20,087 nt of DNA from positions 1-20,087 of the forward strand of contig JAGQYZ010000126.1 in NCBI GenBank assembly GCA_020435865.1. The letters run 5' to 3'. The translations under genes were made by a program, and so were the position numbers. The notes under the pieces were generated by a model that did no database searches, was not told the origin of the DNA, and saw only the letters and a program-made list of their open reading frames with translations. Of the stretch, positions 1,261 to 16,917 are shown piece by piece. This DNA comes from Aequorivita sp. GTDB taxonomy: Bacteria > Bacteroidota > Bacteroidia > Flavobacteriales > Flavobacteriaceae. How positions within the stretch are numbered: the first letter of the stretch is position 1; each line of letters begins with the position of its first letter.

Positions 1261-3504
1261 TTACGCTTTTTTGTAACTTGAATAATATTCCTCAATCAAG
1301 TTCATCAAGGCCGATACCAAATCTTTGGTTTCCAACAAAAGGCTGAAATACAAAGTAGTGTTTTTAGGACTTGATTCTTCGGTACGGGTTCGGGCTATTT
1401 GCTTTTCAATTTTATTTGAAAGGCTTTCAAAGATTTCTTCTTTTTTATTGAGTATGTTTTTAATTCTTTGGAATTCCTTTTTGTGGAAAATATCTTCAAT
1501 TTCATTAAGTAGTTCTTCCAAATGTTCGTCAATTTCCTGTAGGTCCTTTATTTGGTTAAAACGAAGTGCTTTGTGATTGTTATTTACATGTTTGTAGCTT
1601 GCTTTAGAAATAAATTCCAAAGACTGGACAACATCGGTCAAATAGCCAAGAATCGTAATGTAGAAATTACTTCCACGAACGCTGGTTTCGTCTAGGTTTT
1701 TGATGAAATAGAAAATGTTATCACGCAACTCTTCCACTTCATCATTTAATTTGCTTACACCTTTCTTGCTCTTTTTTAATTTTTTGGTGTCCTGTTTGGC
1801 GAGGCCACGAAGCATATCGCTGTATATTTTGTTTGAACGCGAAACTACATTGCTTATATGCTCTGCACTTTCCTGGATGATTCCCTGAACGGTCTTGCTT
1901 TCGGTTTTCTTTAATCCAGTTTTGTCAAGCTTCAGTTTCACTTTATTTTTATGTGAAAGATAATTTCTTACCAATAAGAGAATGGCCAATAATAGCAATA
2001 CAGCAATCATTGCGCCTCTTCCAATATAAATTAAGTAGGTTAAAGTTCCGGCTGCCACAAAGGCAACGAAGGCCGTAAAGAACCAACCACCAATAACGTT
2101 TAGCACTCCTGCAACTCTATAAACTGCGCTTTCACGTCCCCAAGCTCGATCGGCCAAAGATGTACCCATAGCAACCATAAATGTTACATAAGTCGTAGAA
2201 AGTGGTAATTTCATAGAAGTTGCTGTAGCAATCAATATACCTGCAACCACTAGGTTTATGGAAGCACGTACCATATCAAAAGCAGGCAATTCATATGTTT
2301 TGTGTTTTGGAAGATTTACAATTGGTTTTTCAAAACGCTTGTCAATTTTTTCCTGAAGAGAATTTGGTACTATATAATTAAAATAAGTAGATAGCTGTGT
2401 GCTGGATCTTACCAAAAACCTAGAAAGCATATTTGGATTGAATTTTTCGTAGCCTTCGCCCTGGCGTGCTAAATCTATTTCGGTATCGGAAACTGTTCTT
2501 GCTTTTTTGGAAAACCAAAGCGTAAGAACCATTACACCGCCTGCAATAAATAGGAGCAAGGGTTCTGCTGGAACTTTTTCTGCAAGACTGTGCATACTGT
2601 ATTCTGATGCGGGAATCCCAGAGGCAGACCAATCCATAAAACTATGATACGCAGCCATTGGAACTCCAATAAAGTTTACCAAATCATTGCCAGCGAAAGC
2701 CAAAGCAAGGCTGAAAGTACCTACAGCTATTACTATAATAAGAATGCTCTTTTTGAAAATCATCATAAAAAGTTGTGAAAAAATGGTCAAAACAACAAAG
2801 CTTACACCTATTATCATCCACGTATCGCCTTCAACGATGTCTTTAAAATCTCCATAAAAGGGAGTTCCTTTAAGACCTTTCATAAATATGAAATAACTTA
2901 TAGCAGTCAAAGCCACACCTCCAAAGATGGCACCGAAATATTTCATTTTTTGTTCGGCATGGAATGTGAAAATAAGCCGCGAAATATATTGAACAACCAT
3001 CCCGACAGAAAAAGCAACTCCTACAGAAATTACAATCCCAGAAATAATTTCTAGGGCTTTGTCGGTATTAATATATTTTGTGAGTGCTGAAATAGTTTCC
3101 GTATCAGAATGACCAATTTTTATCAACGCCATAATAACGGCCGCTCCCAAAAGCTCAAAAACAATGGATACCGTTGTGGATGTCGGCAGACCTATAGTGT
3201 TGAAGAAATCCAGTAACAAAATATCGGTGATCATTACTGCCATGAAAATGATCATTATTTCATCAAAGTAGAATTCTCCCGGGACAAAGATTCCTTTTCG
3301 TGCCACTTCCATCATTCCACTAGAAAAAACAGCTCCAATGAAAATTCCTAGGCTTGCAACTATCAAGATGGTTCTAAAGGATAGTACTTTGGAGCCTATG
3401 GCCGAGTTTAGAAAGTTTACGGCATCATTACTAACTCCAACTACCAAATCTGCAATGGCTAGTGCAGCAAGGGCGACAATCATCAATAAATAAATATTAT
3501 CCAT
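1261..3504 (-). CDS. PiT-family inorganic phosphate transporter with C-terminal PhoU-like domain (747 aa)
   Basis: This inner-membrane phosphate permease is of the PiT (PF01384) type, driven by an ion gradient. Both halves of the duplicated PiT signature are visible: GVSNDAVNFLNSAIGSK (23-39) with GLPTSTTVSIVFELLGA (105-121), and AGNDLVNFIGVP (271-282) with PLSTTYVTFMVAMG (434-447). Hydrophobic segments fill residues 1-330 and 410-515. After residue 520 the chain becomes soluble, charged and helical (about 530-745), as in PhoU-like DUF47 proteins, so permease and putative regulator are fused in one chain. In many other bacteria the DUF47 protein is a separate gene beside pit. The gene lies 76 bases downstream of the porin on the same strand, with a candidate 11-bp-repeat site in that gap, so it may be read both from the porin promoter and from its own. 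The ATG at 3504 starts directly on the first membrane segment. Confidence 0.92.
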   Translation of the reverse strand: MDNIYLLMIVALAALAIADLVVGVSNDAVNFLNSAIGSKVLSFRTILIVASLGIFIGAVFSSGMMEVARKGIFVPGEFYFDEIMIIFMAVMITDILLLDFFNTIGLPTSTTVSIVFELLGAAVIMALIKIGHSDTETISALTKYINTDKALEIISGIVISVGVAFSVGMVVQYISRLIFTFHAEQKMKYFGAIFGGVALTAISYFIFMKGLKGTPFYGDFKDIVEGDTWMIIGVSFVVLTIFSQLFMMIFKKSILIIVIAVGTFSLALAFAGNDLVNFIGVPMAAYHSFMDWSASGIPASEYSMHSLAEKVPAEPLLLFIAGGVMVLTLWFSKKARTVSDTEIDLARQGEGYEKFNPNMLSRFLVRSSTQLSTYFNYIVPNSLQEKIDKRFEKPIVNLPKHKTYELPAFDMVRASINLVVAGILIATATSMKLPLSTTYVTFMVAMGTSLADRAWGRESAVYRVAGVLNVIGGWFFTAFVAFVAAGTLTYLIYIGRGAMIAVLLLLAILLLVRNYLSHKNKVKLKLDKTGLKKTESKTVQGIIQESAEHISNVVSRSNKIYSDMLRGLAKQDTKKLKKSKKGVSKLNDEVEELRDNIFYFIKNLDETSVRGSNFYITILGYLTDVVQSLEFISKASYKHVNNNHKALRFNQIKDLQEIDEHLEELLNEIEDIFHKKEFQRIKNILNKKEEIFESLSNKIEKQIARTRTEESSPKNTTLYFSLLLETKDLVSALMNLIEEYYSSYKKA

Positions 3505-3580: not shown

Positions 3581-4807
3581 TTAAAAATCAATTTGTAAAC
3601 GGCCTTGCAAAACGCTTGCGTTGCCTTTATCTTCTATATTAGCCCAAACATGGTTTATCATTATTCTGGTTACAGGGTTTAGGTACCAATTTAACCCCAA
3701 AGTAATGTCTGATTGTTGCCCGCCCAAAACATCTTTATTGGTAAGGTCTGAATTTGAATAGCGCAACGCAACTTCCCAAGCGCCTGCACCTTTGTCTTTT
3801 CCGCCGAAATTCTTTTTGGGTTTTACCCTGTCAAAGCCTTCATAAGAGCCTTTATATTTCTTGCTTTCACCAGTGATGTAATAGCTTAATTGGCCATAAT
3901 AGCTTTTAAAGTTATATTTTTCAAAAGTAGCATTGGCAGTATTTTTCAGCGTTGCACTTAAATATTCTCCTTGTATTGAAAATGGACCACTAACAAAAAC
4001 GGCTTCAAAATTTGCGAGATTTATATTGTCCACATTTTCAATGGTTTCTGTATTTATATATTTTAGTTCCAAATGTGCTTCGGGCCTTGAAGATACACTA
4101 TAGGTCTTGCTTTCTGGTTTTCTATAGCTATATCCCAACCCTAGATGGAGTAGTTGTCTTTTTTCTGGATTTTGTATTGCCAATCCTGTAATTCTTCCCG
4201 TAAGGGCATATCCATCATCTGCGAGTATATCATTTCCAGTGTTGTCTGCCATCCTAAACGCGCCAGCTTGAGCAGAAAGGCGTTTTCCCAAAAAGTCATT
4301 GAAAACTAAAATACCATTATTGCGCTCTTGCGAAAAATCTATATTGAATGCACGCTCCATAAAAGTAATGTATTTACTGCTTGTCAAAGCATCAAGTCGG
4401 AATGGTTCCTTAATGTGGCCAATACGAATATTACCAACGGCAGGTATTTCTTCAAGGCCAATGTACATATCCTTAAAGGCAACATTACCACCTGCAAAAT
4501 CAAATTGCAACTTGAATTGTACATTGCTATATACGGTTCCGGACATAAATAAGCGGGCGCGCCTAAATTCTGTACCACTCTTTGATAAAAGGGGCCCATA
4601 AGTATTATTTAATTCATCGTTTTGGAAAAAATAGGCGTGGTCCACCATAATGCGACCGCCAAATTTTAAAGAGAATTGCTTGTCTTGGCTTTCTAGTTTA
4701 AAGCCATTGTCCCATTTAAAAGAAAAAGGATTTGGTTTTTCGTTTTGTGAAAATACAGTTGTAATCACAAAAAATAGTACGCCAAAGAGTAAGCCTTTGT
4801 GTGTCAT
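3581..4807 (-). CDS. Phosphate-selective porin O/P family outer-membrane protein (408 aa)
   Basis: This is a predicted 16-stranded-type outer-membrane porin of the OprO/OprP family (PF07396), which passes phosphate or polyphosphate. After a signal peptide (MTHKG, hydrophobic core, VFSQ at residues 17-20) comes the family-typical start 'FSLKFGGRIMVDHAYFF', then RRARLFMSGTVY, IGHIKEPFRLD and a C-terminal aromatic residue (LQGRLQIDF) as expected for insertion by the Bam machinery. A longer reading frame begins at a TTG at 4837, but the ATG at 4807 gives a clean signal peptide, so I use it. The gene is directly upstream of the PiT transporter on the same strand, which supports a phosphate role and an operon. 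Inverted repeats that could cover the start codon are listed separately. Substrate specificity cannot be read from the sequence alone. Confidence 0.88.
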   Translation of the reverse strand: MTHKGLLFGVLFFVITTVFSQNEKPNPFSFKWDNGFKLESQDKQFSLKFGGRIMVDHAYFFQNDELNNTYGPLLSKSGTEFRRARLFMSGTVYSNVQFKLQFDFAGGNVAFKDMYIGLEEIPAVGNIRIGHIKEPFRLDALTSSKYITFMERAFNIDFSQERNNGILVFNDFLGKRLSAQAGAFRMADNTGNDILADDGYALTGRITGLAIQNPEKRQLLHLGLGYSYRKPESKTYSVSSRPEAHLELKYINTETIENVDNINLANFEAVFVSGPFSIQGEYLSATLKNTANATFEKYNFKSYYGQLSYYITGESKKYKGSYEGFDRVKPKKNFGGKDKGAGAWEVALRYSNSDLTNKDVLGGQQSDITLGLNWYLNPVTRIMINHVWANIEDKGNASVLQGRLQIDF

Positions 4808-4840
4808 TAAAATCAGTTTTAGTTTTTGTCGCTGCAAAGG

Positions 4841-4873
4841 ACTGATTTTAATATTACTTTAATGTTAAGCGAA
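4841..4873 (-). promoter_or_regulatory. Degenerate 11-bp-repeat block before the porin
   Basis: Three 11-bp steps begin ACTGA (4841), TATTA (4852) and TGTTA (4863). Only the last matches the repeat core seen at the other sites, and the first two resemble each other mainly at their TTTAA ends. The block is 34-66 bases before the porin ATG, where an activator site would be expected. The support is weak. Confidence 0.25.
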
Positions 4874-4900
4874 GAAATAAAAAAAAGTATTTTTAGAATG

Positions 4901-4929
4901 AAAAAGGGCCGTACACGAATGTACAGCCC
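4901..4929 (-). terminator. Terminator-like hairpin with UUCG loop in the porin leader region
   Basis: Arms 4906-4915 and 4920-4929 pair over 10 positions with one mismatch. Read on the minus strand the loop is TTCG, a very stable tetraloop, and the stem is followed by five T residues (4905 to 4901). On the plus strand no T-run follows, so it points to the minus strand. No protein gene on that strand ends just before it. It would either end a small RNA begun further upstream or act as an attenuator of the porin transcript. Confidence 0.6.
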
Positions 4930-5112
4930 AATCTTAAAATCTAGTCGACAAAAACTAATTGATTTTAAATAATGCCTATTTTTATAGGCAAATACAAAGA
5001 AAATACTTCAACATTGTTTTTGTGTAAACTTTGCTTTACCAAATCATTAAATCATTTGTTGCGTTATATAAATTTATTTAAAATCCTTAAAATGAATTAA
5101 TTATAGCTTTAA

Positions 5113-5156
5113 TGTTAAGTTAACGTTACGAAATAGTTTCGTAAGGGTTAATTTTG
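5113..5156 (+). promoter_or_regulatory. Candidate Pho-box-like site before the MORN gene (four 11-bp units)
   Basis: Four consecutive 11-bp units start TGTTA (5113), CGTTA (5124), AGTTT (5135) and GGTTA (5146). The last unit abuts a perfect TAnnTTTG box, with no clear TTG -33 element at the usual distance. That is the architecture of promoters in which an OmpR-type activator replaces the upstream promoter element. It points toward the MORN gene (ATG at 5194). The porin start is more than 300 bases away on the other side. Confidence 0.5.
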
Positions 5157-5193: not shown

Positions 5194-5553
5194 ATGAAAA
5201 ATATAATCTCAATTTTAGTAATCCTATTTATAACTTCTGCTTCTTTTTCACAGAGCAAAACGAAAAATACATACATCTTAAATGGTGATGTTGTAAAGGC
5301 AACCATATATCACGACAATGGAATGGTTGCCCAAACAGGTTTTTATAACAAAGAAAATAAACTTACTGGAGAATGGGTAAGTTATGATTTAAACGGAAAC
5401 AAGACTGCTGTTGCACAATATAACAATGGTGAAAAAGTAGGTACTTGGTATTTTTTTACGGATAGAGGTATTAAAGAAGTTTCCTATATGGATGCCCGAG
5501 TTGCTAAAGTAGTAAATTGGAAATCTGACAATACACAGATTGTATCTAATTAA
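5194..5553 (+). CDS. Small exported MORN-repeat protein (119 aa)
   Basis: A signal peptide (MKN, hydrophobic core, SASFSQ; residues 1-20) is followed by about three MORN-like repeats (MORN_2 / YwqK type). These are YHDNGMVAQTGFYNKENK, then LTGEWVSYDLNGNKTAVAQYNNGEK, then VGTWYFFTDRGIKEVSYMDAR. The repeats form short beta-hairpins and fill almost the whole mature chain. In databases such proteins often carry the uninformative name 'YwqK family antitoxin'. No toxin partner is visible here, so I do not call it an antitoxin. It is predicted to be periplasmic or envelope-attached. It is transcribed away from the phosphate porin/PiT genes and follows a four-unit 11-bp-repeat site, so a role in phosphate stress is possible but unproven. 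A convergent terminator follows. Confidence 0.82.
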   Translation: MKNIISILVILFITSASFSQSKTKNTYILNGDVVKATIYHDNGMVAQTGFYNKENKLTGEWVSYDLNGNKTAVAQYNNGEKVGTWYFFTDRGIKEVSYMDARVAKVVNWKSDNTQIVSN

Positions 5554-5631: not shown

Positions 5632-8454
5632 TTAAAAATTGATACTGTAACTTAAACTAATATCCTGCCCAGGGTTCCATTTAGAATATATTTGGTCTTC
5701 AGTACCATAGGACTGATAAACACTTTCAATAGCATTGTTCAAAATGTTATCGAACTTTAACGATAGTGTGGAGTTTCTATTCACCCCAAGTGTTTTTGAA
5801 ATATTTAGTTTTACGTTGTGGTATGGTAAGGTATACACATCTGGAATATCTTCCGCCCCAACTATTTGTAATGTTTTTCCTTGCACGTTATAAAAAATTC
5901 CACCTTGTAATCCCATGTCTTTATTGTCATAGTTGAATCCAATATTTATTAGGTAAGGTGATTGCCCTTGTAACTGGCGGTTATCAGCAAGGGTTTCCCC
6001 TACACGTAAATTGTCTTGACGGTTTGCTCTTTCATCAGCACTGAACTGTTGCTGTGATTCAATGATTGAAACATTAGTACTGAAATTTAGGTCTTGCAAG
6101 CCAGAAATAAACCCAAGATTTTTTCGTATTTCTATTTCGCCTCCAAACACTTTTGCATCACCTAAATTAAGAGGTGTAAATTGGCCGGAAGCACCGCGAA
6201 TGAAAGAAATTTCAATAGGATCCTTGAAAGATTTGTAAAAACCACTCAATGCGAAAAAGTCACCCTGATCTCCATATTTTTCAAAGCGAAGATCATAGTT
6301 GTCAATATAGGTAGGCTGTACGTTTATATTCCCTATAAAGAATGTACTATTTATAGGGTCAAAAATTTCTGCTAATGAAGCTTCTTTAAAAGATGGACGT
6401 GCAGTTGTTCTTGAATAGGACACCCTTATTTTTTTATTTGCATCTTCATTAAGGTCAAAAATTAAGTTTGCAGATGGAAAGAAATCGGATTTGTCAAGAA
6501 TTTTTGCATTGTCAAAGCGGGTTCCATCTTGGCGCTGTCCTGTATAGATTAGATCATATTTTTCATAGCGAACTCCCAAAACCGTGTTGAACCAACTGGC
6601 TACTTTAAATTCTTCAGAAATATAACCAGCTGCCACAGAGGTGTTGGCTTTAAAGGAATCTGAAATTCCGGAATCCCTTCTTACAAAAACACCACTACCA
6701 GTTGCAGGGTCATAAATGTTTTGCGGTGCCAATATTTGGTTAGGATCACCTTCAAAGGTTGCACTCGCAACATTTAAAAGGGAAAAGGAATATTGCACTA
6801 CGTTGAAATCTCTCTTTTTATAATTATAGGCACCTCCAAATTTTAGTTTGGCATCGCTACCAAAAAGGCTGTGTTTTCTGGTAAAATCCGCTTTTCCCGG
6901 AAGGCTTATTTCCTCAAGGGTTCTATAAATACGAATTGGTTCTCCAGATTCACTGGGCTCAATGGTATAGGTAGGTTCCCCACCATCAGGGCTTTCAGTA
7001 ACTTTGAAAGGTGTTACCTTAAAATCTTTATCCTCCACTCTCGCATAAGAAGGTGAAAGTTTGTACTCTAAAGTCCAGCTGGCGTCCTCATTGGTGTTTT
7101 TACCATTAAAAAGTACATTGGAAATGGAGCGCTGTGTATATATCGAGTTGTCTTTCTTTATTTCGTTAACACTAATGATACGGTTGGATTGTTGAAATAT
7201 GGAAGCTTCACTCTCTCCATTTTGAATGTGCAGCAGGTTCAATTTATATTTGGATCTTTCGGTTTTAAAAGAAATTCCCGCCAAACCGCTTAGCAATACA
7301 TTATTATTTCCAAGTTGACCTTGCTGCAATCGGTCCACACGTAATTCGTTAATGGCAGGATCTGTATTCTTTCTGAATACCTGTCCGTCAATATAATCAT
7401 CGTAATACTCCGTTTCGTTTTTGTAAGAAAGGGACGCCAAAAAGCCAAGTTGGTTTTTGCCCACATCATATTGATTTCCTCCAGTTGCTGAAAAACTATA
7501 GTCCATAAAACTTTGTTCTTTTTTAACAGCAAGGTTTGGATCAAACCTTTGTGTAAGTGTTCTTACCGTGGTGCCGCTCTGTTGTGGTAATGGAATTACT
7601 TGCGCCTCTGGGATGGGATTGTTGCGAAAACCGTCGTCAAAACCCAAAAAGTCCGTTTTGCTTTTTTCACCAGTTAGATAGTTGTCATTAAAGTGAAATG
7701 AGGAATTGTATCCCAACCCAAGTGATACACTATATTCTTCACGCGAAGGGATATCTTTGGTAACAATATCCACAACACCGCCCGTAAAATCTGCAGGTTG
7801 GTCCGCAGTTGATGATTTTGTAACTATTAAGTTTTCGAGAATTTTAGTAGGAAAAATGTCTAGTTGCAAGGTATTTCTATCTGGATCCAGCCCGGGAACA
7901 TCCATTCCGTTTAGGATGGATTTGGTATATCTATCACCAAGACCTCGTACATAAACAAATTTACCATTTTGAACCGAAACTCCAGGAACATTGGTTACTG
8001 CGCTTGCAATATTGCTTGCCCCGGTTTTATTGATTGTTTCAAGAGAGAGGCCATCCATTAAACTAACCGAATTCTGTTGTATGCTTAATACAGCCGCAGC
8101 GGTGTTTTGCCGTGCTGTGGTCTTGATTACAACTTCATCCAATTGCCCTGCGCTTGCTTTTAAGGTAACATCTAGATTGGTCGTTTCGCCTTGTTTTACA
8201 ACTACTTCTGCAATTTCTACGGTTTGGTAACCTACGAATGAAAAGCTCAATGTATACGTTCCTGGTTCTAATTTAAGATTATATTTTCCCTCAAAATCTG
8301 AGGTTGTTCCAGTTTGTGTTCCTTTCACAATAACATTTGCAAAAGGAAGCACATCGTTGTACTCGCCGTCAAGCACTTTTCCTGCAACAACTCCTTGTGA
8401 GAAGCCAGCTTGAACAAATAATCCAATTATTGCGAATAATAGTATTTTTTTCAT
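5632..8454 (-). CDS. TonB-dependent outer-membrane receptor with CarboxypepD_reg-like domain (940 aa)
   Basis: This is an outer-membrane active transporter powered by TonB/ExbBD. From the ATG at 8454 the chain has a signal peptide (MKKILLFAIIGLFVQAGFSQ, residues 1-20), a CarboxypepD_reg-like beta-sandwich (about 21-108), a TonB-box-like LDEVVIKTTA (about 109-118), a plug domain (about 130-240, including VRGLGDRYTKSILNGMDVPG and ADFTGGVVDIVTKD) and a long beta-barrel ending in the aromatic residue of SYSINF. A longer frame opens at a TTG at 8502 but would put an extra 16 residues before the signal peptide. The gene lies 80 bases downstream of the beta-helix lipoprotein on the same strand, separated by a hairpin. 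It is larger and different in plan from SusC, and the neighbour is not a SusD. The substrate is not evident. The nearby phosphate genes and the repeat site upstream of the lipoprotein hint at a phosphorus compound. Confidence 0.9.
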   Translation of the reverse strand: MKKILLFAIIGLFVQAGFSQGVVAGKVLDGEYNDVLPFANVIVKGTQTGTTSDFEGKYNLKLEPGTYTLSFSFVGYQTVEIAEVVVKQGETTNLDVTLKASAGQLDEVVIKTTARQNTAAAVLSIQQNSVSLMDGLSLETINKTGASNIASAVTNVPGVSVQNGKFVYVRGLGDRYTKSILNGMDVPGLDPDRNTLQLDIFPTKILENLIVTKSSTADQPADFTGGVVDIVTKDIPSREEYSVSLGLGYNSSFHFNDNYLTGEKSKTDFLGFDDGFRNNPIPEAQVIPLPQQSGTTVRTLTQRFDPNLAVKKEQSFMDYSFSATGGNQYDVGKNQLGFLASLSYKNETEYYDDYIDGQVFRKNTDPAINELRVDRLQQGQLGNNNVLLSGLAGISFKTERSKYKLNLLHIQNGESEASIFQQSNRIISVNEIKKDNSIYTQRSISNVLFNGKNTNEDASWTLEYKLSPSYARVEDKDFKVTPFKVTESPDGGEPTYTIEPSESGEPIRIYRTLEEISLPGKADFTRKHSLFGSDAKLKFGGAYNYKKRDFNVVQYSFSLLNVASATFEGDPNQILAPQNIYDPATGSGVFVRRDSGISDSFKANTSVAAGYISEEFKVASWFNTVLGVRYEKYDLIYTGQRQDGTRFDNAKILDKSDFFPSANLIFDLNEDANKKIRVSYSRTTARPSFKEASLAEIFDPINSTFFIGNINVQPTYIDNYDLRFEKYGDQGDFFALSGFYKSFKDPIEISFIRGASGQFTPLNLGDAKVFGGEIEIRKNLGFISGLQDLNFSTNVSIIESQQQFSADERANRQDNLRVGETLADNRQLQGQSPYLINIGFNYDNKDMGLQGGIFYNVQGKTLQIVGAEDIPDVYTLPYHNVKLNISKTLGVNRNSTLSLKFDNILNNAIESVYQSYGTEDQIYSKWNPGQDISLSYSINF

Positions 8455-8472
8455 CAAAAATGATTTTATATA

Positions 8473-8507
8473 AGAAATTGCCCGTTGCATTTTAACGAGC
8501 AATTTCT
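8473..8507 (-). other. Intergenic hairpin between lipoprotein and TonB receptor genes
   Basis: A 13-bp stem (8473-8481 with 8499-8507, then 8483-8486 with 8494-8497; one C-A mismatch) has a 7-base loop and sits between the lipoprotein stop and the receptor start. No strong T-run follows on the minus strand, so it is more likely a weak terminator or an RNA-stability element. Either would make the lipoprotein more abundant than the receptor. Confidence 0.5.
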
Positions 8508-8534: not shown

Positions 8535-9779
8535 TTATAGGGCGCCTTTTGATTTTGCAAACGTCCAAGAAAAAACAGACAAGTCAGCTCCTCCACTTGT
8601 TCCTGAGGTAGACCAAGCTGCAGCTCTTTCAGTAAAGGTTGGATTAAGAATAATTGGATTTTCTCCTTCTCCGGTTTTTTCTACGAAAATTGAATTTGCA
8701 GTGGGAACGCCAGTTGGTAGGTTGATAACCCAGTTTTGGAAAACAATTTTGCCATCAAGAAAATTCTGTGCAACGGCATTGTTGTCAAGCTCAAGATCAG
8801 AGTCTGTTTTAAATCCAGTAGCATAAATGTTTTTAAATGTGCCTTCTGGCTTGTCTCTTAAATCTGCATATTCTCCGCCTTCTGTAACAGTATTACCAAT
8901 TAAGGTAATTTTATCAAATACAAAACCACGTTGAAAAGAACCTTCTCCTCCGTCAATTTCCATTGCGTGATCTGAAATCTCTCCTTCTATTACTACAGAG
9001 TTAGAAACGGTACCGCCAAAAGCTTGGTCTACATCAAGTCCATCATCACCATGGCCCCATGTCAACAGGTTAGAAACGTTTACTTTTCCACCAAAAAACT
9101 CAACACCATCATCAAGATTCCCAATAATTTCAACGTTAGAAATTGTAGTTCCAGAACCTACACCACCTAAAGTAAGGCCGTTGATTTCATTTCCTTCGCC
9201 AATAGCTGTTCCACCGTGACGAATGGAAACATAATTAATGACACCAGAATTGTCTGCATCATCACTACCTCCATAAAGACCATCTGAATCACTCGCTGGA
9301 ATTCCTTCTATTTGGCTTTCGCTTGCATTTCCCGCTACTGAAATTTTTGCTTTTCCTAAAACCAAAAGTCCACCCCAAAGAGCACGGTCATTTACGCCAA
9401 GGTTTGTTCCGAATTTTTGGCCTACGTTAATGTTATCTGCAACAGAAGTAAAAACAATAGGCTCGTCAGCAGTACCATTTGCCATTATTTTAGCTCCTCT
9501 AGCAATAATAAGTGTTGAGGCATTTGCACCAGAACCAGGCAATGCTTTAATAATTGTACCTTTGTCTATAGTTAATGTTGCACCGTTGGTAACGGATACA
9601 CGACCACTAAGCTGCCAAATTACATCATTTGTCAATGTCATGTCTGACGTAATTTTTCCAGAAAGAGTTGTGTTTACTGGATCTGGCTCAACCGGGATAA
9701 CATTATTGTCATCTTTGCTACAACTAAAAACTAACAGTAGTGATGTAAGCACAATCGAGGATAAAAAGATTTTTTTCAT
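8535..9779 (-). CDS. Predicted surface lipoprotein with right-handed beta-helix (414 aa), partner of the TonB receptor
   Basis: From the ATG at 9779 the protein has a lipoprotein signal with the lipidated Cys at residue 20 (LLLVFSC). It is followed by SKDDNN, similar to the acidic export signal that sends Bacteroidota lipoproteins to the cell surface. After a proline-rich linker, residues 40-350 are built of short Gly/Asn/Asp-rich, Val/Ile-rich turns (VTNGATLTIDKGTIIKA, IISNVEIIGNLDDGVEFFGG-like steps), the pattern of a parallel beta-helix. Acidic clusters DDGVEFFGG (223-231), GHGDDGLDVDQ (242-252) and AMEIDGGEG (272-280) could bind metal or ligand. I see no T9SS domain and no clear catalytic triad. 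A longer frame opens at a TTG at 9812 but the ATG fits the lipoprotein signal. The function is unknown. Co-orientation and tight spacing with the receptor suggest a substrate-capturing partner. Confidence 0.82.
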   Translation of the reverse strand: MKKIFLSSIVLTSLLLVFSCSKDDNNVIPVEPDPVNTTLSGKITSDMTLTNDVIWQLSGRVSVTNGATLTIDKGTIIKALPGSGANASTLIIARGAKIMANGTADEPIVFTSVADNINVGQKFGTNLGVNDRALWGGLLVLGKAKISVAGNASESQIEGIPASDSDGLYGGSDDADNSGVINYVSIRHGGTAIGEGNEINGLTLGGVGSGTTISNVEIIGNLDDGVEFFGGKVNVSNLLTWGHGDDGLDVDQAFGGTVSNSVVIEGEISDHAMEIDGGEGSFQRGFVFDKITLIGNTVTEGGEYADLRDKPEGTFKNIYATGFKTDSDLELDNNAVAQNFLDGKIVFQNWVINLPTGVPTANSIFVEKTGEGENPIILNPTFTERAAAWSTSGTSGGADLSVFSWTFAKSKGAL

Positions 9780-9847
9780 TGTTTTTGTTTTATGGATTTT
9801 TTGTTTTTTCAAGTGTTATTTTATTTACGGCAAAGATGACTCTCTTA

Positions 9848-9913
9848 TGTCATGTCTATGTTAAAAGGAAGTTATCAATAAATGATTTTAGTGTTAGTTA
9901 AAGGTTAAGAAGA
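9848..9913 (-). promoter_or_regulatory. Candidate Pho-box-like array before the lipoprotein/receptor unit (six 11-bp units)
   Basis: On the plus strand six successive 11-bp units begin TGTCA (9848), TGTTA (9859), AGTTA (9870), AATGA (9881, degenerate), TGTTA (9892) and GGTTA (9903). A one-mismatch promoter box (CATCTTTG on the minus strand, 9838 to 9831) lies 9 bases from the array and 52 bases before the lipoprotein ATG, so the lipoprotein is the likeliest target. dgt starts 66 bases to the other side without a clear TAnnTTTG box. Confidence 0.5.
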
Positions 9914-9979: not shown

Positions 9980-11314
9980 ATGATGCAATGGGAACAGTTG
10001 CTCTCGCTTCGTAAGCAAGGCGATAAAAATAAACGCCTGCGAATAGAAGAAAATGAAACTCGCTTGGGTTTTGAGGTTGATTATGACCGTGTTATATTTT
10101 CGTCGGCTTTTCGCAGTTTGCAGGATAAAACCCAGGTTATTCCACTATCAAAAACATCTTTTGTCCATACGCGATTGACTCATAGTTTGGAAGTTTCTGT
10201 GGTTGGTCGATCTCTGGGAAGAATTGTGGGAAAGGAAATTTTAAAAAAACACCCGCAATTGCAAAATGTGTATGGCTATCAATTCAACGATTTTGGAGCT
10301 ATTGTGGCTGCAGCTGCTTTAGCACACGATATTGGCAATCCACCCTTTGGGCATAGTGGTGAAAAAGCGATTGGCGATTATTTTTTAAATGGAAATGGTA
10401 AGCGGTTTAAAAATCAACTCACAGAAAAGGAATATCAAGATTTAGTAGATTTTGAAGGGAATGCCAACGGTTTCAAAATTTTGACCGAATCTAAAAACGG
10501 CGTTGAAGGAGGTCTTCGATTAACATATGCAACTTTAGGCGCATTTATGAAATACCCAAAACAATCCCTTCCCAAGAAGCCCACAACTCACGTTGCCGAT
10601 AAAAAATTTGGCGTTTTTCAAAATGAAACAGATTTTTTCAATGAAGTGGTTTCGGAACTTGGTCTTTTAACCAGAAACAATAGTGGTTATTCACGCCATC
10701 CACTAACATTTCTCGTGGAAGCCGCTGATGATATTTGCTATACCATAATAGATTTTGAAGACGGCATCAATCTCGGGTTAATTGAAGAAGAAATAGCACT
10801 GGAATATTTGATCAATTTGGTTAAGAATAATTTAAAAAAGGATGTGTATTCCAAATTGAAAACTTCTCAGGATAGATTGGCTTATTTGCGCTCGCTTGCC
10901 ATAAACACTTTAATTGCCGAAGCTGCAACTATATTTATTGAGAACGAAGAAGCTATATTGAAAGGAGCTTTTTCTGAAGCTTTGCTTGATAGAAGCCAAT
11001 ACAAAGCCCAAATTGCAGACATCATTAAAATAAGTGTTGAAAAAGTGTACCAAAGCACTGAAGTGATGGAAAAGGAAATTGCTGGTTATACAATTTTGTC
11101 AACTCTGCTTGAAGTATTTACTACGGCTTTTGAAAACCAATATCTTGGAAAGACACGTCAGTATGATAAACTATTGTTGAAAATGTTTGGTAGTGATCTT
11201 TCACAAAAACCCAATTCAGCTTATGAATATATAATGGAGTGCTGCAGTTTTATTTCCAGACTTACTGATGGGAACGCACTTCAGATTTTTCAGAAAGTAA
11301 AAGGGAATCTATAA
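9980..11314 (+). CDS. dgt: Deoxyguanosinetriphosphate triphosphohydrolase-like HD protein (444 aa)
   Basis: This HD-domain dNTP triphosphohydrolase hydrolyses dGTP (or other dNTPs) to the deoxynucleoside and triphosphate, helping control dNTP pools in the cytoplasm. The metal-site motif is complete: RLTHSLEV (His68), AHDIGNPPFGHSGE (His116-Asp117, with the second HxxGxxxHxxxE-type residues His125 and Glu128) and EAADDICY (Asp250/251). FEGNANGFKILTE (158-170) and the N-terminal 'RTEFEVDYDRVIFSSAFRRLQ'-type block (here FEVDYDRVIFSSAFRSLQ, 31-48) are also family hallmarks. The length is usual. Two ATG codons stand in tandem (9980 and 9983) and I use the first. The gene stands alone, with the lipoprotein gene divergent upstream. 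I see no strong terminator behind it, so some transcription may run on into the first protease gene. Confidence 0.93.
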   Translation: MMQWEQLLSLRKQGDKNKRLRIEENETRLGFEVDYDRVIFSSAFRSLQDKTQVIPLSKTSFVHTRLTHSLEVSVVGRSLGRIVGKEILKKHPQLQNVYGYQFNDFGAIVAAAALAHDIGNPPFGHSGEKAIGDYFLNGNGKRFKNQLTEKEYQDLVDFEGNANGFKILTESKNGVEGGLRLTYATLGAFMKYPKQSLPKKPTTHVADKKFGVFQNETDFFNEVVSELGLLTRNNSGYSRHPLTFLVEAADDICYTIIDFEDGINLGLIEEEIALEYLINLVKNNLKKDVYSKLKTSQDRLAYLRSLAINTLIAEAATIFIENEEAILKGAFSEALLDRSQYKAQIADIIKISVEKVYQSTEVMEKEIAGYTILSTLLEVFTTAFENQYLGKTRQYDKLLLKMFGSDLSQKPNSAYEYIMECCSFISRLTDGNALQIFQKVKGNL

Positions 11315-11437: not shown

Positions 11438-14026
11438 ATGAAAAAAATACTCTACTTTCTATTTCTTTTGGCTGTCAATCTTTCTTTTGCACAAGATTTT
11501 TCTTCTGCAGTAAAAACGTATCTACAAAATAATCGATCACAATTTGGATTGCAACCTCAGGATATCTCTGACGTTAGTATTGCTTCACAGAGCTTTTCCA
11601 AGAGCCTGAAAGCAAATACTGTTTATGTTGAACAGAACTATCAGGGCATTAAAGTGTTCAACGCTACCTCGCCTTTTATTATTCAGGATGGTTCAGTTAC
11701 CTTAGCGAAAGTTTCTTTTGTTCAAAATATAGCTTCAAAAGTGAATGCCACTTCACCAGGATTAGCTCCAAATATGGCAATAGTAAAGGCAGCTGCTGCG
11801 CTGGGATTGGAAACTCCTTCCAATCTAAATTTACTTGAAACAGGGATGGACAATTCCTATATTTTTTCTAAAGGGAATATTTCTTTGGAAAACATTCCGG
11901 TACAATTGGTATATCAAAAAATGGAAGGCGCTAATATCCTGCGACTAGCCTGGGATGTGAGTATTTATTTGTTGAATGCAGACCATTATTACGATGTTCG
12001 TATAGATGCAATTACCGGAGATTTATTGGAAACTATGGATTGGGTTTCACAATGTGAAATGCCCAGTTTTTCCGTAAATCGAAATACTAACAAAAAAAAT
12101 GATGAAAATGTGTTGTTTGAAAACAGCATTCCTGAATATACAAGTACACTCGTGGATGCTCAATATAGAGTTTTTGCCTTACCGCTGAGAAATCCTAATG
12201 ACGGACCAGATACATTGGTGATCACTCCTGAAGATGCTACAGCCTCTCCGTTTGGATGGCATGATACTAATGGCACTACAGGTGCAGAATTTACAATTAC
12301 AAGAGGAAATAATGCATATTCATATTTGGATTTATGTAATACAAATTCAGGAAACTCACCAGATGGTGGCGCTTCATTAAATTTTGATTTCCCTTTTAAT
12401 TTACCTCAATCTCCTGCTAATTTTAGAGATGCATCAGCAGTGAATTTGTTTTATTTGAATAATATCATTCACGATGTAATGTATCAATATGGTTTTGATG
12501 AAGCCAGTGGGAACTTTCAGGAAAACAATTATGGGAATGGAGGATTAGGTAGTGACTCTGTAAATGCTGAAGCACAGGATGGTGGTGGCACCAATAACGC
12601 AAATTTTGGCACACCACCAGACGGAGGTAACCCGAGAATGCAAATGTATATTTGGACAAGCGGTGCTGGAGGTCCCATTGCTGATATTTTTTCAATTAAT
12701 GGTGGCCCATTGGCAGGTGTCTATAGTGGTGTGCCTGCAAATTTCGGCGGCGGTATTCCACTGAACCTTACTGGAGATTTAGCTTTAATAGAAGATGATG
12801 ATTCAGGGCCTTCTTCCGATCCAAACGACGGTTGTGACAATATTACGAATGGTGGTTCCTTAAATGGAAAAATTGTAGTTATCAGAAGAGGTGAATGCGA
12901 ATTTGGATTTAAAGTATTGGCTGCTGAAAATAATGGTGCCGTTGCTGTAATTATTGTAAACAATGTAGCAGGTGATCCACCGCTTATGGGTGGTGGAGTA
13001 GTCGGTTGTCAAGTAACCATTCCAGCATTTGCAATTTCTGATGTTGATGGAGAGCCCATAATCACGCAACTAGGTTCTGGATCTGTCAACGGAACCATTA
13101 ATGGAACAAATGTCCCATTAAGTCTTGACGGGGATCTTGATACAGAAATTGTTACTCATGAATATGGCCACGGAATTTCAAATCGACTTACTGGCGGGCC
13201 TAGTAATACAAGTTGCTTGCAGAACGAAGAGCAAATGGGTGAGGGCTGGAGTGATTTCTTCGCTTTGGTTATGACCATTTACAGTGGTGATCAAGGATCA
13301 GGTGTTAGACCTATGGCTTCATACGCTTCTGGTGACTCAAACGGTATCAGAACATATCCATATAGTACTAATTTTGCAGTAAACCCTCATACCTATGATG
13401 ATATTAAAACAGAAGTTGCCCCCCACGGTGTGGGCTCAGTATGGACGGCCATGTTGTGGGAAATGACCTGGGATCTAATAGGGGAATATGGTTTTGACCC
13501 AGACATTTATAATGGTACAGGAGGTAATAATATAGCCTTACAATTAGTAATAGATGGATTGAAACTACAACCCTGTAGTCCGGGATTTGTTGACGGTAGG
13601 GATGCTATTCTTGAAGCAGACGAATTAGCTAATGGTGGTGCAAACCGATGCCTAATCTGGCGTGCCTTTGCAAGAAGAGGATTGGGGCTTAGTGCCAATC
13701 AAGGTAGTTCAAATAGTAAATCAGACGGTACTGAGGCTTTTGATGTTCCAGTAGATTGCCAATTGGGCGTTAATGATGCTGGTAGTATCAATAATTTTAT
13801 TATCTATCCAAACCCATCAAACGGGCAGATAAATATCTATTCCAGATTTGATGTGGGCAACACAACCATATCCATTTTTGATTTAAACGGAAGAAAGGTA
13901 TTTACTCAGCAGGTGGAACTCCATGATACCACAAATATAAACGCAAGTGGTCTAAATACAGGGGTTTATTTAATAAAAGTAGAAAGTGCGGATCGTACAC
14001 AAACTTCCAAAATGATTATCAACTAA
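11438..14026 (+). CDS. Secreted M36 fungalysin metalloprotease with PA insert and T9SS sorting domain (862 aa), copy 1
   Basis: This is an extracellular zinc endopeptidase. The order is: signal peptide (1-19, ...LSFAQ); fungalysin/thermolysin-type propeptide (about 20-200, with FTP and PepSY-like parts ending DAITGDLLETMDW); M36 catalytic domain from about 240, starting YRVFALPLRNPNDG and continuing through ASPFGWHD and NNIIHDVMYQYGFDE; a protease-associated (PA) domain inserted at about 440-560 (NGGSLNGKIVVIRRGECEFGFK); zinc motif HEYGH (His574, Glu575, His578) with third ligand Glu602 in GEGWSD; HGVGSVWTAMLWE (His663); and a type A T9SS C-terminal sorting domain (about 787-862, YPNPSNGQ to VYLIKV). 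The propeptide should be cut off to activate the enzyme outside the cell. The gene is followed by a strong inverted repeat and then by its paralogue in the same direction. All key residues are present. The natural substrate is unknown. Confidence 0.93.
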   Translation: MKKILYFLFLLAVNLSFAQDFSSAVKTYLQNNRSQFGLQPQDISDVSIASQSFSKSLKANTVYVEQNYQGIKVFNATSPFIIQDGSVTLAKVSFVQNIASKVNATSPGLAPNMAIVKAAAALGLETPSNLNLLETGMDNSYIFSKGNISLENIPVQLVYQKMEGANILRLAWDVSIYLLNADHYYDVRIDAITGDLLETMDWVSQCEMPSFSVNRNTNKKNDENVLFENSIPEYTSTLVDAQYRVFALPLRNPNDGPDTLVITPEDATASPFGWHDTNGTTGAEFTITRGNNAYSYLDLCNTNSGNSPDGGASLNFDFPFNLPQSPANFRDASAVNLFYLNNIIHDVMYQYGFDEASGNFQENNYGNGGLGSDSVNAEAQDGGGTNNANFGTPPDGGNPRMQMYIWTSGAGGPIADIFSINGGPLAGVYSGVPANFGGGIPLNLTGDLALIEDDDSGPSSDPNDGCDNITNGGSLNGKIVVIRRGECEFGFKVLAAENNGAVAVIIVNNVAGDPPLMGGGVVGCQVTIPAFAISDVDGEPIITQLGSGSVNGTINGTNVPLSLDGDLDTEIVTHEYGHGISNRLTGGPSNTSCLQNEEQMGEGWSDFFALVMTIYSGDQGSGVRPMASYASGDSNGIRTYPYSTNFAVNPHTYDDIKTEVAPHGVGSVWTAMLWEMTWDLIGEYGFDPDIYNGTGGNNIALQLVIDGLKLQPCSPGFVDGRDAILEADELANGGANRCLIWRAFARRGLGLSANQGSSNSKSDGTEAFDVPVDCQLGVNDAGSINNFIIYPNPSNGQINIYSRFDVGNTTISIFDLNGRKVFTQQVELHDTTNINASGLNTGVYLIKVESADRTQTSKMIIN

Positions 14027-14328: not shown

Positions 14329-16917
14329 ATGAAAAAAGTTCTTTACTTACTTATCATTTTTACTGTAAATATCTCCTTTGCTCAGGATTACAGTAGTTTG
14401 ATAAAAACGTACCTTCAACAAAACCGAGCACAATATTCGCTTCAACAGCAGGATATTTCGGGCATTACTATTGCTTCACAGAGTTCCTCAAAAGGGATGC
14501 ATGTTCAAAATGTATATGTGGAACAGCGCCACCAAGGCATTAAATTGTTCAATTCTACTTCTACTTTTGTTATTAAAGAAGGGGCGGTATATAGTGCTAA
14601 GCTTTCCTTTACACCGAATGCTGCTGCAAAAGTAAATAGCACTTCGCCATCTATTTCTGCAGTAAGTGCAATATCAAAAGCAGCTAATTGGCTTGGATTG
14701 GAAAATCCTTCAAATCTCAATTTGTTGGAAACAGTCTCAGATCACAGCTATATTTTTTCAAATGGTAATATTTCATTGGAAAACATTCCAGTAGAACTTG
14801 TTTATCAAAAAATGAATGAAACAGGTGTTTTAAAACTTGCTTGGGATTTAAGTATATACCTTTCAGATGCTTCACATTATTACAGTGTTCGTATTGACGC
14901 CCTTACTGGTGAGTTATTGGACACAAACGATTGGGTAGTGAGTTGTAACTTTGAGGGTTCACATTCCCACTCCAATTCTGGCAGTGTGCTTTTTTCAAAA
15001 AATAAAGTAACCAATTCAAGCCGTATGCTTGGCGATGGGGCTTCATATCGTGTTTTTCCTTTGCCGCTGATTGCTCCTAATGATGGAGAGGACCAAATAG
15101 TTTCTGACCCTTCTGATCCAACAGCTTCTCCTTTTGGATGGCACGATTGGGATGGTGTTGCAGGTCCGGAGTTTACTGTTACAAAAGGGAACAATGCTTG
15201 GGCAAATGAAGACCAAAACGGAAATAATGGAAATGGAGCAACTGCAGAGGGAGGTCCAACACTTACTTTTGATTTCCCTTTTAACCTTCCTCAGGCCCCT
15301 GCAAGCTTTTTGGATGGTGCAATTACCAATTTGTTCTACATGAACAATATGATGCATGACATTATGTATCATTATGGTTTTGATGAGGAAAGTGGAAACT
15401 TTCAAAAAAATAATTATGGCAATCCTGGTAGTGGAAATGACTTTGTTGTTGCCGATGCTCAAGATGGTAGTGGCTCGAACAATGCTAACTTTGGAACACC
15501 ACCAGATGGTAGTACACCAAGAATGCAAATGTATCTTTGGAGTGCCCCTGGCCAGGTATTAGGAACTTTTCTAACCGTTAACAATGGTCCTTTGGCTGGT
15601 GCTTATTATGGTGCCGAATCCAATTTTTCACCACCACCACCAGTTTCTCCTATAACTGCAGACCTTGTAGTAATAGAGGATAATGCTGGCGACCCAAACG
15701 ATGGTTGTGAAACTATAACCAATGGAGGTGACTTGAACGGTAAAATTGTGTTAATCAGAAATGGAAGTTGTGCTTATAACGCAAAAACACTTGCCGCACA
15801 AAATGCGGGAGCTTTAGCTGTTATAATTGTTAATGACATTCCTGCGGATCCTATTGCAATGGGAGGAAGTGGTTCTGGCATAACTATACCAGCCATTATG
15901 ATATATCAATCAGACGGAGAGGCATTGATTACTTCGCTTTTAAATGGAGACACCATCAATGCAACATTAAAAGATGACGGTTCTGGAAATGATCCTTTCC
16001 AAAGAGATGGTGATTTAGACAATGTGGTAATCGCGCACGAGTACACACACGGAATTTCTAACCGTTTGACAGGAGGTCCTAGTCAAGCTAACTGTCTTCA
16101 AAATGACGAACAAATGGGTGAGGGTTGGAGTGATTATTTTGCATTGATGGTAACAATGAAGCCTGGGGACACTAGAAACGATTACCGTGGAATAGGTACC
16201 TATGTTGAAGGACAAGGAATAGGAGGAAGAGGTTTAAGAACCAAATATTACACCACAGACATGTTAGTAAATAATTTTACATACAATTCCATTAAATTCC
16301 AATCAATTCCACACGGAGTGGGCTCCGTTTGGACAACCATGCTTTGGGACTTAACTTGGGACCTAATTGACCGATATGGTTTTGATCCTGATATTAAAAA
16401 TGGTTCTGGTGGTAATAATATAGCACTTCAGCTTGTAATGGATGGAATGAAACTTCAGCCTTGTAGCCCAGGATTTGTAGATGGACGGGATGCTATTTTA
16501 GAAGCCGACCAACTTCGTTATGGTGGCGTTAACAGATGTCTTATCTGGCGTGCTTTTGCTAGGAGAGGTCTTGGAGAAAACGCACTTCAAGGAAGTAGTA
16601 GCAGCAGATCTGATGGAACAGAGAATTTTGATATTCCAGCAGGATGTGAGTTAGGTATTTCTGATAATGGGGCTAATGATAACAATTTCATAGTTTATCC
16701 AAATCCATCAAATGGAGAACTTAGCATTAAATCCCGAGTTGATGTTGGAGAAGCTACAATCTCTATTTTTGATATGAATGGTAGAAAAGTGTTTAATCAA
16801 ACAATTGAACTTCATCAAAGCACCACTATTAATGCCTCTGGGCTTTCCTCAGGTATTTACTTGATGCAGATTGATAGTGCGGACCGTTCACAAACAACTA
16901 AATTGATAATCAACTAG
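14329..16917 (+). CDS. Secreted M36 fungalysin metalloprotease with PA insert and T9SS sorting domain (862 aa), copy 2
   Basis: This is a paralogue of the preceding gene with the same plan: signal peptide (1-19), propeptide (about 20-200), M36 catalytic domain, inserted PA domain (about 440-555, NGGDLNGKIVLIRNGSCAYNAK), zinc motif HEYTH (His570, Glu571, His574), third ligand Glu598 in GEGWSD, HGVGSVWTTMLWD and a type A T9SS sorting domain (about 785-862). Both proteins are 862 residues long, although small insertions and deletions differ. By eye, identity is about 36/60 in the first 60 residues and 52/60 around PCSPGFVDGRDAILEAD. Differences concentrate in the linker after the propeptide (a His/Ser-rich SHSHSNSGS here), in the PA domain and around residues 615-650 after the zinc site, which may shift substrate choice. 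The enzyme is intact and probably secreted to the surface or medium. It is followed by a convergent terminator with dxs. Confidence 0.93.
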   Translation: MKKVLYLLIIFTVNISFAQDYSSLIKTYLQQNRAQYSLQQQDISGITIASQSSSKGMHVQNVYVEQRHQGIKLFNSTSTFVIKEGAVYSAKLSFTPNAAAKVNSTSPSISAVSAISKAANWLGLENPSNLNLLETVSDHSYIFSNGNISLENIPVELVYQKMNETGVLKLAWDLSIYLSDASHYYSVRIDALTGELLDTNDWVVSCNFEGSHSHSNSGSVLFSKNKVTNSSRMLGDGASYRVFPLPLIAPNDGEDQIVSDPSDPTASPFGWHDWDGVAGPEFTVTKGNNAWANEDQNGNNGNGATAEGGPTLTFDFPFNLPQAPASFLDGAITNLFYMNNMMHDIMYHYGFDEESGNFQKNNYGNPGSGNDFVVADAQDGSGSNNANFGTPPDGSTPRMQMYLWSAPGQVLGTFLTVNNGPLAGAYYGAESNFSPPPPVSPITADLVVIEDNAGDPNDGCETITNGGDLNGKIVLIRNGSCAYNAKTLAAQNAGALAVIIVNDIPADPIAMGGSGSGITIPAIMIYQSDGEALITSLLNGDTINATLKDDGSGNDPFQRDGDLDNVVIAHEYTHGISNRLTGGPSQANCLQNDEQMGEGWSDYFALMVTMKPGDTRNDYRGIGTYVEGQGIGGRGLRTKYYTTDMLVNNFTYNSIKFQSIPHGVGSVWTTMLWDLTWDLIDRYGFDPDIKNGSGGNNIALQLVMDGMKLQPCSPGFVDGRDAILEADQLRYGGVNRCLIWRAFARRGLGENALQGSSSSRSDGTENFDIPAGCELGISDNGANDNNFIVYPNPSNGELSIKSRVDVGEATISIFDMNGRKVFNQTIELHQSTTINASGLSSGIYLMQIDSADRSQTTKLIIN

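Follow-up and report, generated by a model that had tools for sequence, protein, structure and literature searches.

Gene context of an 11-bp repeat array

The window, that is, the whole 20,087-nt stretch of Aequorivita sp. DNA analysed here, encodes on its minus strand an outer-membrane lipoprotein and a TonB-dependent receptor (TBDT), preceded by an array of 11-bp units that is near-certainly real and regulatory. The features immediately around this array are:

9843..9908, minus strand: six-unit 11-bp array with a TAAC core, upstream of the lipoprotein/TBDT unit (plus-strand register 9848-9913)
9831..9838, minus strand: -7 box CATCTTTG, with the last array unit starting 23 bp upstream of its end
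8535..9779, minus strand: beta-helix-type outer-membrane lipoprotein (lipobox, AlphaFold model, Foldseek)
5632..8502, minus strand: TonB-dependent receptor with CarboxypepD_reg domain (domain match)
9980..11314, plus strand: dGTP triphosphohydrolase (dgt; NF002205 over cut-off), a divergent neighbour that is context outside the system

Inspection of the intergene reproduced the six consecutive steps on which the initial annotation had been based, starting with TGTCA (9848), TGTTA (9859), AGTTA (9870), AATGA (9881), TGTTA (9892) and GGTTA (9903). Read on the minus strand, toward the lipoprotein, the units run from 9908 down to 9843 as TTAACCTTTAA, CTAACACTAAA, ATCATTTATTG, ATAACTTCCTT, TTAACATAGAC and ATGACATAAGA. 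The sixth is followed by GAGTCATCTTTG, whose TTTG ends at 9831; the -7 box contained therein, described as near-consensus, differs at its first base from TAnnTTTG, the flavobacterial sigma A consensus as printed in PMC9723704.

Six TAAC cores at 11-bp steps match the sequence in 21 of 24 core bases, and any other step from 5 to 22 gives 15 or fewer. Dinucleotide shuffling of the 200-bp intergene (5000 rounds) never produced a score of 21, nor did 300 shuffles of the whole window, the best of which gave 20. As the TAAC core was picked after the site had been seen, more weight rests on an independent held-out test: a 66-column model (R1), for which 37 relatives were used and the window and its 95%-identical relative left out, scored the window array with 29.2 bits (E = 2.3e-6) and ranked it as the best place in its own genome among the 150 best first-look candidates, to which scoring was confined. 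A loose pattern of two TAAC cores plus TNA, again in 11-bp steps, showed no enrichment in the own genome, with 12 matches vs. 17 for the reversed control.

The array is conserved in step and register

For relatives of the lipoprotein, 80 loci were kept of 556 confirmed. An ungapped search of 81 upstream regions (including the window, which also fed the iterated matrix of this search; the R1 and R3 searches were held out for it) found six units in register at more than 8 bits in 71, the other ten scoring 8 bits or less. Eleven base pairs was the unique best step in 75 of the 80 scorable upstreams (window included, one upstream of <200 bp left out), the remainder comprising three ties and one best step each of 7 and 13. 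Measured between the first base of unit six and the last base of TTTG, the distance amounted to 23 bp in 69 of the 71 promoters that scored above 15 bits, and to 34 bp in the other two. This 23-bp register is common to three promoters, namely those of the lipoprotein (six units; n = 69, picked for this spacing out of 71), of the small RNA introduced below (four units; n = 59) and of the porin (three units; n = 65). The one-turn direct repeats that had been likened to PhoB/PhoP-class sites are thus present in both spacing and fixed register, and, as in a Pho-box-type site, the register places the array over the -33/-35 region of the promoter, itself a prediction. With regard to half-site type, the proposed likeness to the TTAACA of B. 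subtilis stood, and that to the TGTCA of E. coli did not.

Searched against 14 whole genomes, R1 found its best match at an array of the window's lipoprotein type in 12. In one of the other two (G005) this match preceded a related TBDT/lipoprotein pair adjoining MORN, Pit and phoB genes, and in the other (G006, locus L107) it fell in a place without a recognised phosphate gene. Family-wide, 285 of 397 genomes and 187 of 237 genera were matched at E 0.01, whatever gene follows; the remaining 112 genomes gave no match.

The uptake pair is exchanged behind a constant array

All 20 aligned lipoproteins share the lipobox cysteine (residue 20), and the AlphaFold model is beta-rich (pLDDT 86). The first PDB matches returned by Foldseek are tailspikes, pectate lyases, pectin methylesterases and a polygalacturonase, all of them weak: none of 271 matches had an E-value at or below 0.001, and the TM-scores of the 50 listed were all 0.49 or less. 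The term beta-helix lipoprotein therefore holds in outline, by lipobox and model, and the fold matches behind it are weak.

In G040, a genome of the same genus, the lipoprotein at this site is 69% identical to that of the window. In G267, also of this genus, the same array is flanked by dgt, an M36 peptidase and the MORN, porin and Pit genes (L217, G267:C1:1262001-1282000); behind it, a TBDT is followed by a lipoprotein, the reverse of the window order, and this pair is only distantly related to that of the window (39% identity over 297 aa and 33% over 382). Judged by these alignments, the array is retained across an exchange of the uptake pair. The window itself encodes tandem M36 fungalysin-type peptidases with a PA domain and a T9SS sorting tail (11438-14026 and 14329-16917).

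Arrays mark a phosphate locus

Further down the minus strand, the window contains additional arrays and genes with a bearing on phosphate uptake:

5194..5553, plus strand: small MORN-repeat-like protein (Pfam 26.6 bits, below the cut-off of 29.6), divergent to the porin side
5108..5151, minus strand: second array, four units, score 29.4, adjoining the MORN start and TGTTA-type when read from the MORN side
4847..4868, minus strand: fourth array, at the porin promoter (two clear units in the window, three in the relatives' consensus; E 0.23; -7 box ends at 4835)
3581..4807, minus strand: Porin_O_P outer-membrane porin (PF07396)
1261..3504, minus strand: Pit-type phosphate transporter (PHO4, PF01384)

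Behind Pit, at 298-1071, lies a 257-aa protein without a Pfam match that is 88% identical at the same place in G267. Among 80 relative loci, several of which end at contig edges, Pit was found in 47 and dgt in 51, and phoB lay divergent to the lipoprotein within 500 bp in 24.

That the array might be no commoner before phosphate genes than elsewhere had been named as the outcome that would speak against phosphate control. A generic model (R3), trained without any sequence of the window's genus and applied to 150 candidates per genome, gave 23 matches at E 0.3 or less in six whole genomes. All 15 with E <0.03 were located at the uptake pair, the MORN/porin intergene, the porin promoter or phoB, and so support the phosphate association: six beside MORN (four of them in the MORN/porin intergene), one at the porin promoter, three at the uptake pair beside dgt (including the exchanged pair in G267), two between phoB and a divergent TBDT, and three upstream of phoB alone. 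The eight weaker matches comprised the window's porin promoter, one site between porin and Pit, and six at other genes. In G040 and G267 (99-100% complete), three out of three R3 matches each corresponded to the MORN/porin intergene, the uptake pair beside dgt, and phoB. Since lipoprotein and MORN/porin arrays of other genera served to train both the unit matrix and R3, matches at these promoters partly reflect homology. The phoB arrays were not collected as training sites, a single array being shared where phoB is divergent to the lipoprotein.

A four-unit scan over 1.42 Mb around the relatives' loci yielded 116 matches, 51 of them before the lipoprotein, 13 before Pit and 28 before unnamed frames, four out of four of which, when checked by Pfam, proved to be Porin_O_P. 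Another eight preceded TBDT-matching frames (a small CarboxypepD_reg protein where inspected), and the rest fell before porin (3) or MORN (3), at places without a gene (8) or at other genes (2). Across 316 genes from 20 stretches of G267, only four had a four-unit score above 8, and these four belong to the stretch that had been selected to cover this locus. Next in rank, with a three-unit score of 23.1, were phoB and the gene divergent to it, on the second selected stretch; in the remaining 18 stretches no four-unit score above 2.8 occurred among the top 12 listed.

A phoB array (top 2.2% of background, four units, within 250 bp upstream) was present in 14 of 16 orthologues and absent from two (L177, L181). 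Where phoB is distant from the lipoprotein site (other contig or >100 kb), it was found in seven of nine cases, which are partly independent of the training sites. In the window's genus (L118, that is G000:C356, and L306 and L307), this array lies between phoB and a divergent gene, which in the own genome (L118) bears a T9SS sorting tail.

Enrichment had also been expected before pst, phoX and pit genes. This expectation was borne out for the Pit/porin promoters and failed for pst and phoX. No PstS was recognised in 22 genomes; 13 PF12849 matches in 11 of them, considered as PstS candidates, were rejected since their first residues point to LysR-type regulators, and served as an unplanned negative control, one of the 13 falling in the top 2% of background with four units. 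Six genes of the PhoX family occurred in five of the 22 genomes, and none of the five scorable ones reached the top 3% with four units (background fractions 0.038 to 0.47; L208, 0.016 with three units). Na/Pi cotransporters, found in three of the 22 genomes, had an array in one of three cases. Taken together, these sequence comparisons support the array as a mark of phosphate genes, chiefly phosphate-uptake genes, in the genomes examined.

Array-like sites were also noticed elsewhere. In Flaviramulus, Maribacter and Lutimonas (L108, L110, L116), an approximately 120-aa CarboxypepD_reg protein has its own array, followed in Maribacter by a porin-like frame (by its first residues) and accompanied in Lutimonas by a divergent Na/Pi cotransporter. 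An ECF sigma factor gene of Arenibacter (L111, G007:C37) has an array-like site upstream (E 0.002).

A PhoB-like regulator

The OmpR-family regulator encoded on contig C356 of the own genome has one close relative in each of 15 other genomes (68-93% identity), the next full-length match among those listed being 39% identical. PhoB is its best NCBIfam family, with scores below the equivalog cut-offs (TIGR02154, 220.8 vs. 296.2 bits; NF053854, 209 vs. 270). As PhoB remains the best family in spite of this, we term the regulator PhoB-like. It is likely to be the protein reading the array, judging from sequence; the own genome (69% complete) encodes one Trans_reg_C protein.

A candidate small RNA is complementary to the porin leader

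Between the MORN and porin genes, a third array precedes a candidate small-RNA gene, whose parts are:

5007..5050, minus strand: third array, four units (TTAAT/GTAAA/TTTAC/ACAAT), small-RNA promoter
4995..5002, minus strand: small-RNA -7 box TTTCTTTG
4899..4992, minus strand: predicted small RNA of ~94 nt comprising a 5' hairpin, a seed hairpin and a terminator (z = -6.9; ends deduced from the sequence)
4944..4955, minus strand: seed GUUUUUGUCGAC, complementary to the porin leader
4901..4929, minus strand: intrinsic terminator hairpin plus T run
4808..4831, minus strand: porin mRNA leader CGACAAAAACTAAAACTGATTTTA, proposed small-RNA target

The window RNA folds with -32.5 kcal/mol. A consensus fold keeps the terminator and the seed hairpin, with compensatory changes in 8 of 14 pairs, and 19 of 23 single folds show the seed in a small stem-loop. 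The variable 5' hairpin was poorly aligned by RNAalifold and therefore left out of the RNA model (R2).

The motif GTTTTTGTCGAC was present in 27 of 57 MORN-to-next-gene intergenes, the window included, and in each of these 27 a (C/T)GACAAAAA(A)C leader is found ahead of the next long frame, no farther than 260 nt away in 25 of them; the RNA-to-leader distance was 1.1 kb in L013 and 2.8 kb in L008. The 30 intergenes without the motif were followed by Pit, the lipoprotein or other genes, L017 being a case of a porin without the RNA motif. For pairing, 59 of 66 alignment rows were used, from which identical rows and seven more had been dropped and which excluded L008 and L013, their leaders being too far away. 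Standard pairs accounted for 95.1% of RNA-leader pair cells in these 59 sequences, compared to 37-53% when the strands were slid against each other, a control that keeps species relatedness. Double-changed pair cells numbered 18 vs. 4.8 in shuffles, none of 500 of which reached this value, although shuffling does not remove relatedness. Pairing at the start codon (helix 1, 89.3% of cells) was below that of the seed (97.5%). In a permutation of cognate pairs, 0 of 10000 permutations reached the observed value, with 1277 species pairs for and 354 against, kinship of the species not being removed.

The RNA model matched 207 of 397 genomes and 146 of 237 genera. Out of 50 loci (the 30 best plus 20 chosen to include weak and distant ones), 49 sites remained after removal of one duplicate, and 46 of these had a Porin_O_P-type gene with a complementary leader downstream (44 by script with BLAST to known porins, plus L259 and L272 by eye and Pfam). 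At L276 (G282:C1), a variant RNA (GTCAAC) is accompanied by a matching leader before a 335-aa protein without a Pfam match, and two orphan copies, in G134 (L241/L260) and G027 (L275), lack an adjoining porin. A search by leader pattern for further targets in six genomes returned 14 places; in three of these genomes, the reversed control gave more. With its own promoter, intrinsic terminator, conserved structure and covarying target complementarity, the locus has the sequence attributes of an antisense RNA, and the small-RNA gene is very likely real. No Rfam 15 family matched at gathering threshold (best E-value, sbrA, 0.0052; 25.6 of 45 bits), and we found no description of such an RNA in the open-access literature. 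It is apparently undescribed, the 85 new RNAs of F. psychrophilum being covered here by the text of their paper rather than by sequence.

Discussion

We infer, with good confidence, that the array is a Pho-box-type operator, whose TAAC half-sites on one DNA face would be bound by the PhoB-like OmpR-family regulator in a phosphate-responsive manner. The regulator would activate the -7-box promoter, with the last array unit covering the -33 region, and at low phosphate the arrays would turn on the lipoprotein/TonB-receptor pair, the MORN and porin-Pit side, the small RNA and phoB itself. Once made, the RNA could pair with the leader and start codon of the porin message, probably blocking translation, and the cell would thereby shift from porin/Pit uptake to the TonB-dependent pair. 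We infer this sign, and regard repression of the porin at low phosphate as probable; given that the porin promoter also has an array, its activation and the RNA block would oppose each other.

The E. coli Pho box consists of TGTCA-type direct repeats at 11 bp, the last one over the -35 region. It shares with the array the 11-bp direct repeats on one helix face, a last repeat over -35/-33 and phosphate genes downstream, whereas the arrays described here have a TAAC-type core, number up to six units and belong to -7 promoters of the Bacteroidota type. Sites of B. subtilis PhoP, TTAACA-like repeats with a spacing of about 11 bp, have nearly the same half-site and spacing, with several repeats in a row, but belong to another phylum, promoter type and set of genes, and differ from the fixed register and up to six units found here. 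R. anatipestifer is a relative within Flavobacteriia. For its OmpR-family PhoP, DAP-seq gave TTTAACA as the "most conserved nucleotides" (PMC9603813), and PhoP binds before its own operon; we liken this system by its in-vitro motif (PMC9603813, PMC5399024). The words 11 bp, direct repeat and spacing are absent from the text of PMC9603813, and the passages of the two papers differ as to the role of this PhoP in phosphate control. B. fragilis PhoB binds the pstC promoter, with no consensus in the passages covered (PMC3547664), and Pho boxes have been predicted near plcP of marine bacteria, again with no sequence in those passages (PMC4796936). Within the open-access literature covered, we found no 11-bp array for Bacteroidota, "11 bp" itself having been searched inside PMC9603813.

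A further parallel is the phoBR operon/PUSIV of F. johnsoniae, where phosphate depletion strongly induces a TBDT and a pectin-lyase-type lipoprotein beside phoBR and OprP (PMC8115612). Locus numbers and text place the TBDT ahead of the lipoprotein (Fjoh_0545/0546), as in the G267 pair and unlike that of the window. OprP was not induced (-1.3, FDR 0.25), and the text covered contains none of the terms "Pho box", "motif" and "promoter" (PMC8115612). Rfp18 and other small RNAs of F. psychrophilum likewise exemplify flavobacterial RNAs conserved beyond one species, but their predicted targets are proteases, and the text covered does not contain the word "porin" (PMC9723704).

Could the array be chance, or a generic feature of A/T-rich promoters? 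The A/T-richness of the region, the deviation of units three and six from the core, and a loose pattern no commoner genome-wide than its reversed control would speak for this; yet the shuffles (0 of 5000), the unique 11-bp step in 75 of 80 upstreams, the identical -7 box spacing in 69 of 71, the held-out E-value of 2.3e-6 and the restriction of four-unit scores above 8 to 4 of 316 sampled G267 genes, all at the phosphate cluster, have already refuted this explanation. Direct-repeat sites of 10-11 bp are common to OmpR-family regulators, and another member reading the array for a non-phosphate outer-membrane or nutrient signal, with coincidental phosphate neighbours, would fit the layout as well. 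A precedent of sorts is R. anatipestifer, in which pstS was higher in a PhoP mutant and PhoP was compared with that of M. tuberculosis (PMC5399024). We consider this quite unlikely, as the array precedes phoB in 14 of 16 genomes and sits at Pit and porin promoters, the lipoprotein lies beside phoBR in 24 of 80 relatives, and a single Trans_reg_C protein is encoded in the own genome, at 69% completeness.

For the RNA, the complementary stretch might instead be the leader or attenuator of a longer porin transcript, or a protein-bound inverted repeat in DNA, which would covary as well. RNA gene and porin are adjacent and co-oriented, so that a read-through transcript could pair internally. This is unlikely in our view: the RNA has an in-register promoter and a terminator of its own, and a second promoter, that of the porin, follows this terminator; both the terminator and the seed hairpin are conserved; pairing extends into the start codon; and in L008 and L013 the leader is 2.8 and 1.1 kb away from the RNA, with two orphan copies lacking a porin altogether. 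It seems reasonably probable that an RNA from a PhoB-type array promoter, antisense to the start codon and the whole leader of the neighbouring Porin_O_P gene, occurs family-wide, so that porin shut-off would be an integral part of how flavobacteria respond to phosphate, and that the same array keeps the uptake pair inducible despite pair exchange.

Flavobacteriaceae are widespread in the sea and in soil, where phosphate often limits growth. Their phosphate regulon is known by expression, and TTTAACA of R. anatipestifer PhoP is the only binding motif given in the literature covered. The array provides an exact, countable operator, defined by unit, spacing and register, which can be scanned for in genomes of the family, and it names a regulon core composed of the lipoprotein/TonB pair, the MORN protein, porin-Pit and phoB. 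To this regulon, the present analysis would add an RNA arm, apparently undescribed, for which both the target and the base pairs are predicted.
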